Below are positions 51,267-54,666 of a stretch of DNA of 54,666 nucleotides, piece after piece (position 1 is the first letter of the stretch; the number at the start of each line of letters is the position of its first letter). The stretch covers positions 1 to 54,666 of the forward strand of contig JALVUD010000004.1 in assembly GCA_027035765.1 (NCBI GenBank), given 5' to 3'. Source of the DNA: Campylobacteraceae bacterium (lineage in GTDB: Bacteria > Campylobacterota > Campylobacteria > Campylobacterales > Sulfurovaceae). The position numbers and the translations under genes are program-made. Below the pieces are notes generated by a model, which worked only from the letters and a program-made list of their open reading frames with translations, searched no databases and was not told where the DNA came from.

Positions 51267-52595
51267 ATGGACTATGACTACGACATCCTTTTCCTCGGCG
51301 GCGGACTCAACTACGCCGGGGCCGTGGTAGCCTCCAAAGCGGGGCTAAAGTGTGCTCTGGTGGAGAAGAACCCCGAGCATCTGGGGGGCACTTGCCTCCA
51401 CAACGGCTGCATCCCCTCCAAGATGTACCTGGAGGCCGCCGAGACGGTCCGCAAGGCGAAAAAGAGACATTTCATCGGTAGCGTCGCGCTGGATATGGCA
51501 AAACTCGACGACGAAAAAGAGGCGCTGCTGGCGCGGGCGACGGCGGCCATCACCAAACAGTGCGCCAAGGTCGATATCGTCAAGGGGGAGGGGAAACTCG
51601 TCGCCTCCCATACCGTCGAAGTGGACGGGCGGAAAATGACGGGACGATACGTGATCCTCGGCACCGGTTCGCGCCCCTTCATCCCCGAAGGGATCGAGTA
51701 TGACGGCAAGGGAGTGATCACCAGCGACGAAGTGCTCAATCTGAAGGCGTTGCCCAAAAAGATCGCCGTCTACGGCGACGGAGCCATCGGGCTGGAGATG
51801 GCGAGCTTCTTCGCGAGCGCCGGGGTGGAGACCGAGCTGATCTGGCGGCATGAGACGCTGCTGCGCAACGCCCATCCGACGATCTCCCAAAACCTGATGA
51901 AACAGATGGAGTCTCTGGGGGTCGCCCTAACGCCCAATAAGGAAATCCGCAGTGCAAAAACCACGAAACGGGGCGTGCACATCGTCTATACCGACGATTC
52001 GGAGCACTACGTCCCGACGCTTCTGGTGGCCACGGGACGCCGCGCGGTCACCGACGCCGTAGAGACCCCCGAGATCGAAATCGGCAAAAAAGGGATCGTC
52101 ACCGACGAACACTTCGAGACGACATTGAAAGATCACTACGCCATCGGCGACTGCAACGGCAAGCTCCAGCTGGCCCACGCCGCCCGGGCCGAAGTGCTCT
52201 ACGTAGTGCGCCGGATTCTGGGCAAAAAGCCCGAAACGATCGATCTCGAGCAGGTGGTCAAATTCATCCACACCCTGCCGTGCTCCTACGCCGTCGTCGG
52301 CAAAAGCAAAGCGGAGTTAGAAAGAAGCGGAATGGAGTACAGTGAAAGCGTCGTGCCGCTGAACGGACTCCCCTTCGCGGTCACCCACGACGGCGCCGAC
52401 GGGATGATGATCGTCTACGACGACGCGGAAGGGTTCATCCTCGGCGGCGAGATCTTCGCCCCGAACGCCGAGGAGCTCATCGGTATCGTCGCCATGGCCT
52501 TGGCCGGCGAAATGGACGCCGCGACGGCCAAACGGACGATCCTGGCCCACCCGACATTCAGCGAATCGCTGGAGAAGGCCTTTTTGCGGCTATGA
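51267..52595 (+). CDS. Dihydrolipoyl dehydrogenase-like flavoprotein (E3), copy 2
   Basis: The start at 51267 (MDYDYDILFLGGGLNYAG) has AAAAAGGAC upstream; the frame from 51216 would cover the repeat. The 442-aa product has the redox pair in GGTCLHNGCIPSK (Cys43, Cys48), a NAD-site motif (VYGDGAIGLEMASFFASAG), IGDCNGKLQLAHAA and the C-terminal AHPTFSE dyad. The first FAD motif is unusual: GGGLNYAGAVVA lacks the last Gly of GxGxxG. It may be the E3 of the nearby pdhABC. It overlaps lipB by ATGA, supporting a lipoyl role. Confidence 0.86.
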   Translation: MDYDYDILFLGGGLNYAGAVVASKAGLKCALVEKNPEHLGGTCLHNGCIPSKMYLEAAETVRKAKKRHFIGSVALDMAKLDDEKEALLARATAAITKQCAKVDIVKGEGKLVASHTVEVDGRKMTGRYVILGTGSRPFIPEGIEYDGKGVITSDEVLNLKALPKKIAVYGDGAIGLEMASFFASAGVETELIWRHETLLRNAHPTISQNLMKQMESLGVALTPNKEIRSAKTTKRGVHIVYTDDSEHYVPTLLVATGRRAVTDAVETPEIEIGKKGIVTDEHFETTLKDHYAIGDCNGKLQLAHAARAEVLYVVRRILGKKPETIDLEQVVKFIHTLPCSYAVVGKSKAELERSGMEYSESVVPLNGLPFAVTHDGADGMMIVYDDAEGFILGGEIFAPNAEELIGIVAMALAGEMDAATAKRTILAHPTFSESLEKAFLRL

Positions 52596-53194
52596 TCCTC
52601 CACCGCTGGGGCCTGATCCGCTATGAAGAGGCCCGCGAAAAGATGGACGAGGTCCACGCCACAGCCTCTGCCGACGGTCAAAACCATCTGATCTTTTGCT
52701 CCCATCCGCTCTGCTATACCGTCGGTAGCGACGATCCGGGTAACTGGCCGGTGGAGACGATCCCCACCGACCGGGGCGGCTCCATCACCTGCCACTCTCC
52801 GGGACAGCTGGTGGCCTACATTTGCTTTCAGGCGCCCGAGCCCGCCTTGTTTTACCGGAAAGTGCGCCGCTCCTACGACGCCCTTTTTGCCGAACTGCTA
52901 CCCCGGGCCCGCTACGATGCCAAACGCCCCGGCTGGTACATCGAAAACCGCAAGATTGCGTCCCTTGGTTTCCGCTACCGAAACGGCGTGAGTCTGCACG
53001 GCGTCGCTCTCAATGTCGACGTGGACCTGGCGGCTCACAACCGCGTCGCTCCTTGCAATCTCGAGAGTGTCATTGCTACTTCTCTGGCCGCCGAGGGAAT
53101 AGTGATTTCATTGGAGGAAGTAGAGTCGATTTTGCATTCCATTTTGTGTGCGGTATTTGAATCTCCTATTTTTAGACATACGTATATTAATTAA
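52592..53194 (+). CDS. lipB: Octanoyl-ACP:protein octanoyltransferase
   Basis: The 200-aa product has DRGGSITCHSPGQLVAYICF (RGGxxTxHGPGQL-like), NRKIASLGFRYRNGVSLHGVALNVDVDL with catalytic Lys121, and VAPCNLES with the nucleophile Cys155 (usual motif PCG). It attaches octanoate to lipoyl domains such as that of PdhC; a LipA partner is not in the window. It overlaps the E3 gene by 4 bp. The last ~30 codons are clearly more A+T-rich than the rest, so the 3' end may have been replaced. Confidence 0.88.
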   Translation: MILHRWGLIRYEEAREKMDEVHATASADGQNHLIFCSHPLCYTVGSDDPGNWPVETIPTDRGGSITCHSPGQLVAYICFQAPEPALFYRKVRRSYDALFAELLPRARYDAKRPGWYIENRKIASLGFRYRNGVSLHGVALNVDVDLAAHNRVAPCNLESVIATSLAAEGIVISLEEVESILHSILCAVFESPIFRHTYIN

Positions 53195-53241: not shown

Positions 53242-53949
53242 ATGAAAAAAATTGCTCTGTCCGGAATAGTGGCAATTGGATTGAGTGGACTTCTAATGGC
53301 GGGTGGGGATATTACTCCGGCCACTCTATCAGCTACAGATAGTTGGGGCGGATTTTATGTTGGGGTACAAGCAGGATGGATTCGTGGGACAGATGATGTG
53401 GATGTAAGCTCAAGTTATGGCTATAACGATCATTTTCACTTGAAACCTAACGGAGGCTTGGGAGGTCTATATGGAGGATACAATTGGCAGCTTCCCCAAA
53501 ACTGGTTAATTGGAGTGGAAGGAGAGTACAATTGGATATCTGCAGATGATGAAGTTCCTACTTTGGATCCCAATTACCATTATAAAATCAAATATAGATG
53601 GGAAGCAGTAGTACTGGCTCGTGTCGGGAAAATACTGAATCATACTTATATGCCTTATGTCCTGGGAGGATTGACATGGCAACGTATCACGGGTTTCTGG
53701 CCGAATACTGTCAATGATAGCTTTTGGGCGGCAGAAGATAAAAAAACTCTTCATGGATGGACTTTGGGAGCAGGGTTGGAAATGAAACTTTCGAAAAATC
53801 TGCATCTGAGATTGCAATATCGCTATAACCATTATCATCGAGGAGATCTTCTTCATGGAGAATGGTATTTGGGAACCTATTACGCTACATATGAAAAAGT
53901 CAAACAGCATGAAAACATAATTCAGCTCGGACTTAGCTATCATTTCTGA
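53242..53949 (+). CDS. Outer-membrane beta-barrel protein, A+T-rich
   Basis: The 235-aa product has a signal peptide (MKKIALSGIVAIGLSGLLMA). An eight-stranded-barrel pattern follows: WGGFYVGVQAGWIRG at the start, alternating aromatic strands (GGLYGGYNWQL, GVEGEYNWIS, LHLRLQYRYNHY) and a terminal Phe (LGLSYHF), as needed for barrel assembly. It resembles small Omp25/OmpA-like barrels. Its base composition is far lower in G+C than neighbours, a sign of transfer. GGAGTGCC precedes the ATG. Function (adhesion, structure or transport) is not visible. Confidence 0.8.
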   Translation: MKKIALSGIVAIGLSGLLMAGGDITPATLSATDSWGGFYVGVQAGWIRGTDDVDVSSSYGYNDHFHLKPNGGLGGLYGGYNWQLPQNWLIGVEGEYNWISADDEVPTLDPNYHYKIKYRWEAVVLARVGKILNHTYMPYVLGGLTWQRITGFWPNTVNDSFWAAEDKKTLHGWTLGAGLEMKLSKNLHLRLQYRYNHYHRGDLLHGEWYLGTYYATYEKVKQHENIIQLGLSYHF

Positions 53950-53993: not shown

Positions 53994-53999
53994 TATAAT
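53994..53999 (+). promoter_or_regulatory. -10 element of the antiporter-subunit leader
   Basis: TATAAT in the context CTTTTCGGAG, as at 1717. Transcription would begin near 54006 and run 160 nt to the ATG at 54165, through two hairpin-plus-T-run structures. Confidence 0.6.
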
Positions 54000-54014
54000 C
54001 GCCCCAAATCAGGA

Positions 54015-54044
54015 CTTACCCGACTCGGCTCAAGGCCGGGCAAG
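54015..54044 (+). ncRNA. Stem in the antiporter leader, candidate regulatory RNA
   Basis: CTTACCCG (54015-54022) pairs with CGGGCAAG (54037-54044), 7 of 8 bases, enclosing a 14-nt loop. It lies at the 5' end of the expected transcript, just before the first terminator. I recognise no known riboswitch consensus. It could be a sensor domain of an attenuator or the body of a ~70-nt small RNA. Confidence 0.4.
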
Positions 54045-54053
54045 CCCTCTTTC

Positions 54054-54077
54054 GCGCCGCGCTGCCGGCGCATTTTT
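54054..54077 (+). terminator. First intrinsic terminator in the leader
   Basis: Perfect arms GCGCCG (54054-54059) and CGGCGC (54066-54071), loop CGCTGC, then A and five T. It lies about 70 nt after the predicted transcription start and well before the coding region. Confidence 0.75.
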
Positions 54078-54116
54078 CCGAAGACGTTTCATTGTTGCGT
54101 TGTGCCGTTATCTTCG

Positions 54117-54150
54117 CCTCGTTTGGTTGAAACGGGGTGATTTTTCTTTT
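54117..54150 (+). terminator. Second intrinsic terminator, directly before the ribosome site
   Basis: Arms CCTCGTTT (54117-54124) and AAACGGGG (54130-54137), 8 pairs including one G-U, loop GGTTG, then TGATTTTTCTTTT. The GGAG ribosome site follows 2 nt later, so a full read-through is needed to express the gene. Confidence 0.7.
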
Positions 54151-54164
54151 TGGAGTCGTCGCTC

Positions 54165-54666
54165 ATGCCTTTTGCGTTTCAGTTCGATGCCCTGTCGATC
54201 CTCTTTGTCTTTTTGATCCTGCTGGGGGTGGTCCCCAATCTCTTTTACTCCCGGGGCTATCTGCCGCATATCGGGCGCAAAGCCCATTACCGGATCCACT
54301 ACTGGGGCTTCGTCCTCTCGATGCTGGGGGTGGTGACGGCGGCCAACGGGCTGACCTTTCTGCTCTTTTGGGAGCTGATGAGCCTGACCAGCTGGCAGTT
54401 GATCCTGACCGAGCCCGAAGAGGAGGGGACGATCCCTGCGGCGCGGTTCTACTTTTTCATGACCCATTTCGGCTTCGTCTTTTTGCTGCTCTTTTTCCTC
54501 ATCGCCACGGATGGGAATCTGGAGATGGACTTTGCGCAGATGCGTTCGGCGGTGGAGCATTTCGCCTACCCTTCCTTGCTCTTTTTCCTCCTGATTCTGG
54601 GTTTTCTCTCCAAGGCCGGGGCGGTGCCGCTGCATGTCTGGCTTCCCTATGCCCACCCGGCGGCCC
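54165..54666 (+). CDS. Hydrogenase-4/NuoL-type proton-conducting subunit (C-terminus beyond window)
   Basis: The frame opens at ATG 54165 with GGAG 9 nt upstream and an in-frame stop at 54138, so no longer start is likely. The visible 167 residues are very hydrophobic and have the antiporter-subunit pattern: LTFLLFWELMSLTSWQLIL and LGFLSKAGAVPLHVWLPYAHPAA, with the conserved TM Glu and Lys. The AGAVPLHVWLPYAHPAA segment fits HyfB/HycC of group-4 hydrogenases best, with NuoL, Mrp and DabB as relatives. It is probably the first gene of an energy-converting or inorganic-carbon operon that continues outside. Confidence 0.8.
   Translation, partial: MPFAFQFDALSILFVFLILLGVVPNLFYSRGYLPHIGRKAHYRIHYWGFVLSMLGVVTAANGLTFLLFWELMSLTSWQLILTEPEEEGTIPAARFYFFMTHFGFVFLLLFFLIATDGNLEMDFAQMRSAVEHFAYPSLLFFLLILGFLSKAGAVPLHVWLPYAHPAA

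Follow-up and report, generated by a model that had tools for sequence, protein, structure and literature searches.

A conserved hairpin in the 5′ leader of an Ehr-like operon of Campylobacterota as a candidate cis-regulatory RNA element

Organization of the locus

The window, which is the whole 54,666-nucleotide stretch of DNA analysed here (contig JALVUD010000004.1 of the Campylobacteraceae bacterium assembly GCA_027035765.1), ends within a gene that is preceded by a compact leader (Table 1). The gene encodes a Proton_antipo_M domain and belongs, as judged by homologue, to the hydrogenase 4 subunit B family. The leader had been ascribed to a gene of the proton-pump type, and this holds, as the gene is hyfB-like and the leader is conserved before it in relatives. 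The remaining genes of the operon were located on another contig of the same genome (C28), which begins with the bases that end the window's contig. In the complete loci that were read, the gene order is hyfB-C-E-F-G-I, and a second hyfB is sometimes present. The HyfG-like large subunit of this genome (L182:4417-5820) and of six others (L162-L166, L010) lacks the CxxC motif that supplies the NiFe-binding cysteines, and the operon therefore appears to encode an Ehr-like complex rather than a functional [NiFe] hydrogenase. Ehr (energy-converting hydrogenase-related) complexes are suspected of linking redox reactions to the translocation of charge (PMC6349859). The operon described here has the composition by which such complexes are recognized, with group-4-hydrogenase-like subunits, antiporter-type subunits and a large subunit without the NiFe-binding cysteines. 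In this genome the operon is flanked by lipoate genes: a lipoyl synthase gene (L182:6570-7421) lies after it, and a lipoyl-ligase-like gene (window 52592-53194) lies before the leader region.

Table 1. Features of the leader region, in window coordinates
Feature	Position	Strand	Description
TATAAT, −10 element of the leader promoter	53994..53999	+	Sequence; invariant in seven genus members
P1, conserved hairpin	54011..54048	+	Arms 54011-54020 (AGGACUUACC) and 54039-54048 (GGCAAGCCCU)
P1 A.C mismatches	54014.54045 and 54018.54041	+	
P1 variable apical hairpin	54021-54038	+	
T1, terminator-like hairpin	54054..54077	+	Hairpin 54054-54071, A, then U5 at 54073-54077
T2, terminator-like hairpin	54114..54151	+	Hairpin 54114-54140, then U5CU5 (TTTTTCTTTTT) at 54141-54151
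GGAG, Shine-Dalgarno sequence of hyfB	54152..54155	+	Sequence; directly 3′ of the T2 U tract, 9 nt before the ATG
hyfB-like gene, first of the Ehr-like operon	54165..54666	+	ATG at 54165; gene cut by the contig end, rest on contig C28

The original prediction, made from the sequence of the window, named a TATAAT, a structured 5′ stem, two terminators and a ribosome site, and all of these are present close to where they had been placed. The 5′ stem is slightly wider than the 54015-54044 first proposed, and the second terminator, given as 54117-54150 and as ending 2 nt before the ribosome site, in fact starts earlier and its U tract adjoins the GGAG. Both T1 and T2 conform to the intrinsic-terminator pattern of a GC-rich stem with a U tract immediately after it, T2 strongly so, and both are predicted to terminate transcription. 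Taken alone, T2 is far more stable than shuffled sequences (ΔG −15.7, z −5.4) and T1 modestly so (ΔG −11.7, z −1.1). Six terminator-like sites were counted in 2.7 kb, not an unusual number given the 3.0 ± 2.1 seen in shuffles, and the leader as a whole folds no better than its shuffles (z −0.42). The P1 stem folds weakly on the plus strand (z −0.8) and strongly on the minus strand (z −5.2). The leader thus stands out because it is conserved and not because of its folding energy.

Conservation of the leader and its hairpins

When the window's genome and 40 relatives were searched at the DNA level, the leader was matched in the window and in six of the 40, all from a single Nitratifractor-like genus, and in all seven genomes of this genus the leader lies directly before the hyfB-like gene. 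Its core, GTATAATCG...CAGGACTTACCC...GGCAAGCCCT, is nearly invariant among the seven. The T1 hairpin is kept in every one of them, with a U tract that is uneven and is poor in two (G008 and G011). The second hairpin with its U tract occupies the slot that is held in relatives by a different hairpin, P2, and this position suggests that P2 was replaced by T2 in the window. Emphasis had originally been placed on the two stacked terminators, and this does not stand, since T2 was found as a terminator only in the window and its closest relative (G008) and T1, with its inconsistent U tract, in one genus only. On sequence comparison, the tandem terminators appear to be a later addition limited to close relatives and not the conserved part of the leader. 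Conditional read-through may occur at T1 and T2, and conservation gives no support to attenuation there. Inspection by eye of the alignment and folds of the seven Nitratifractor leaders revealed no antiterminator pairing common to the clade. Two leaders (L080 and L081) contain a short hairpin, GCAAG-CCCUC-CUUGC, that overlaps the 3′ arm of P1 and the 5′ arm of T1 (compare L010:3740-3800), and that is possibly an antiterminator in these two leaders only.

The conservation of P1 extends beyond the genus. Its outer arms, AGGACU and AGCCCU, were found in 48 of 95 unique Campylobacterota hyfB upstream regions, where 0.10 would be expected from dinucleotide shuffles. The lineages that bear P1 include Nitratifractor, Sulfurovum, Sulfurimonas and an Arcobacter-like group, the last being a label for a leader type with a short distance from P1 to the start codon and not a taxonomic result. 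The arms are identical in five lineages in which the flanking sequences are only 14-50% identical, and they remain constant while the loop varies from 5 to 57 nt and the distance to the start codon from 14 to 138 nt. In 33 of 47 P1 leaders a TATAAT is located 11-16 nt upstream of the 5′ arm; in the Arcobacter-like leaders P1 lies ∼60 nt from the TATAAT. Approximately half of the sampled hyfB upstream regions are without P1, including those of second tandem copies and of many more distant hyfB loci, Nautiliales among them.

The search for covariation in homologous upstream regions that had been proposed as a check was carried out, and both P1 and P2 show changes that preserve pairing. For P1 these are AGGACG/CGCCCU in L061 and GAGACU/AGCCUC in L094 and L098, in a set that also includes L118 and L083, which were chosen for complementarity, so that the count overstates the case. 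The fourth position of P1 is an A.C mismatch in 43 of 47 leaders when scored with a version of the pattern that leaves this position free, a version used as a check because the main pattern fixes it, and in one leader (L074) a P1 mismatch has become an A-U pair. Nitratifractor leaders have A.C at position 8, where those of Sulfurimonas mostly have C.A. P2, which has the form GUCCGA[stem]CCGAAC, occurs in Sulfurovum-type and some Nitratifractor-like leaders. Double changes are seen at three of its three stem pairs (7 cells versus 2.5 in shuffles) while the flanking motif is nearly constant, and a standard pair never forms at either of its two mismatch positions, which are always or almost always A.C. 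A structured leader, as originally proposed, is retained, with the difference that its conserved unit is the 5′ hairpin that had been mentioned in passing, joined in many relatives by a second hairpin, and not the terminators.

Association with hyfB

A pattern combining the promoter with both P1 arms matched in 24 of 399 genomes of the order. By context, 17 of the 27 matching places precede hyfB and the other 10 resemble chance, at a level comparable to that of a reversed-pattern control. A covariance model of P1 and P2 gave good scores only before hyfB in 349 genomes. Use of the same element before other genes was considered and rejected, as the pattern matches away from hyfB are about as frequent as those of the reversed control, several of them lie inside open reading frames, and the weak model matches are at chance level. 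In two genomes with tandem hyfB genes, P1 is found before both copies. Such tandem genes are present in some genomes (L163, from the Sulfurimonas-type genome G266, L165 and L082), the second copy having its own P1 in L163 and L082 and not in the others.

The leader sits behind different genes in G008, G006, G011 and G004/G005 and keeps its own TATAAT throughout. It had been recognized that the hairpins might only terminate the upstream outer-membrane gene. That gene is upstream in this genome only and is absent in relatives that keep the leader, and therefore the hairpins do not serve it. The outer-membrane beta-barrel gene (window 53242-53949) lies between the lipoyl-ligase-like gene and the leader of hyfB, apparently as an insertion; the leader of the close relative G008 (L002) is immediately preceded by the end of the lipoyl-ligase gene.

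Comparison with known regulatory leaders

No family of Rfam 15, known riboswitches included, matched the window at the gathering score, the best weak matches having E values of 0.57 and 3.2, far below the cut-off, and six relatives yielded no match with E up to 1. A known riboswitch or small RNA was rejected on these grounds, in agreement with the original remark that no known consensus was recognizable. The order of promoter, structured leader, terminator-like hairpins, Shine-Dalgarno sequence and gene within 170 nt is that of terminator-attenuated and riboswitch leaders, which the present leader differs from in having no supported antiterminator, no Rfam match and terminators that are not conserved beyond the clade.

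Sequestration of the ribosome site, as in Shine-Dalgarno-sequestering switches and RNA thermometers, was also considered. In Sulfurimonas-type leaders, pairing is possible between the AGCCCUCC arm and the GGAG, but across the five leader groups the pairing energy is no better overall than that of shuffles (mean z 0.16, −0.29, 0.07, −0.53 and 1.23) and is worse in Arcobacter-like leaders. A cascade in which arms 1:2 and 3:4 would alternate with 1:3 and 4:5 is appealing by eye but was rejected, since it gives no general duplex-energy signal over shuffles. Leaders in which P1 is changed cannot form the 1:3 pairing (GGAC:GUCC). Control by CsrA was likewise rejected, as no CsrA was matched in this 99.9% complete genome and L094 and L098 lose the GGA of P1 while keeping its pairing. 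A small upstream open reading frame starting at an AUG within the Sulfurovum-type P2 was discarded on inspection by eye, its frame being broken in L033 and its AUG absent in L035.

Discussion

The region is most likely an undescribed cis-regulatory leader RNA of the Ehr-like operon, without a match in Rfam, and a survey of open-access papers turned up no description of a leader RNA associated with Ehr operons. More specifically, we propose, at a probability of about 0.5, that it is the 5′ untranslated leader of the hyfB-C-E-F-G-I operon, in which P1 acts as a cis-acting RNA site for a trans factor and T1 and T2 are an attenuator-like addition in the window's clade. The conserved core is P1, usually near the 5′ end, with its near-invariant AGGACU/AGCCCU arms and A.C mismatch. 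P1 would be read by a putative trans factor, either protein or ligand, that sets the amount of operon messenger made or used. The site may be completed in Sulfurovum-type leaders by a second hairpin, the internal CCGA/CCGA motif of which is invariant. The expression side was apparently rebuilt from T1 and T2 in the window's clade, where transcription would end ahead of hyfB except under conditions that permit read-through. Counting against this proposal are the weak fold of P1 on the plus strand, the A.C mismatches, whose minus-strand equivalents would be G.U pairs, the lack of a signal for Shine-Dalgarno sequestration, the many hyfB upstream regions that are without P1, and the confinement of T1 and T2 to a single clade.

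The strand is the main uncertainty, and pairing alone fits the minus strand better. All recurrent A.C mismatches, in P1 and P2 alike, would be G.U pairs there, and it is on that strand that P1 of the window folds well. The hairpins might accordingly belong to an antisense RNA that runs across the hyfB leader and base-pairs with the beginning of the hyfB messenger. We regard this as distinctly unlikely, and infer that the plus strand is more likely the active one, because it carries a promoter at a fixed distance from P1 in most leaders and a Shine-Dalgarno sequence behind it, because no minus-strand TATAAT lies within 60 nt downstream of P1 in any of the 47 leaders, and because the G.U pairs and U tracts of T1 and T2 are on the plus strand. 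In addition, L074 pairs on the plus strand by means of a G.U.

Stem-loops at the 5′ end are known to stabilize bacterial messengers, and P1, a hairpin that begins a few nucleotides into the predicted transcript in most leaders and that keeps its pairing while its sequence changes in L061 and L094, might merely protect the hyfB messenger from decay without any sensor. A stabilizer needs no particular sequence, however, whereas the arms of P1 are near-invariant and its A.C mismatch is conserved, and the Arcobacter-like P1 is far from the TATAAT; we therefore consider such a role unlikely. The near-fixed distance of the first half-site from the −10 element, and the joint change of both half-sites in L094 and L061, as under a shifted DNA specificity, would also fit an inverted repeat that serves as a DNA operator for a transcription factor and not as an RNA hairpin. 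This is very improbable given that the spacing of the half-sites ranges so widely, that the P2 stems covary around short loops and that the repeat lies far from the −10 element in Arcobacter-like leaders. The resemblance of T1 and T2 in the window to intrinsic terminators would agree with a small RNA of ∼70-150 nt that ends at either hairpin and leaves hyfB to be expressed through leaky read-through only, to which we assign little probability, as the restricted distribution of both terminators and the constant linkage of P1 to hyfB argue against it. The cis-acting RNA site proposed above could itself be a new type of sensor, in which the A.C mismatches lie beside G-C pairs and protonation (A+.C) or a ligand sets the stability of the helix and thereby the expression of the charge-translocating Ehr complex. 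This is a highly speculative extension, and if true it would constitute a pH- or energy-state-sensing class of RNA in vent Campylobacterota.

The locus illustrates that eye-catching terminators can be the youngest part of a leader, while the part that is conserved seems weak when judged by its folding energy. The conserved A.C mismatches are themselves unusual and amenable to testing. A leader RNA that is apparently dedicated to a single operon offers a regulatory handle on the Ehr complexes of vent Campylobacterota, which are poorly understood, and learning what triggers it would hint at the role of the Ehr-like complex.
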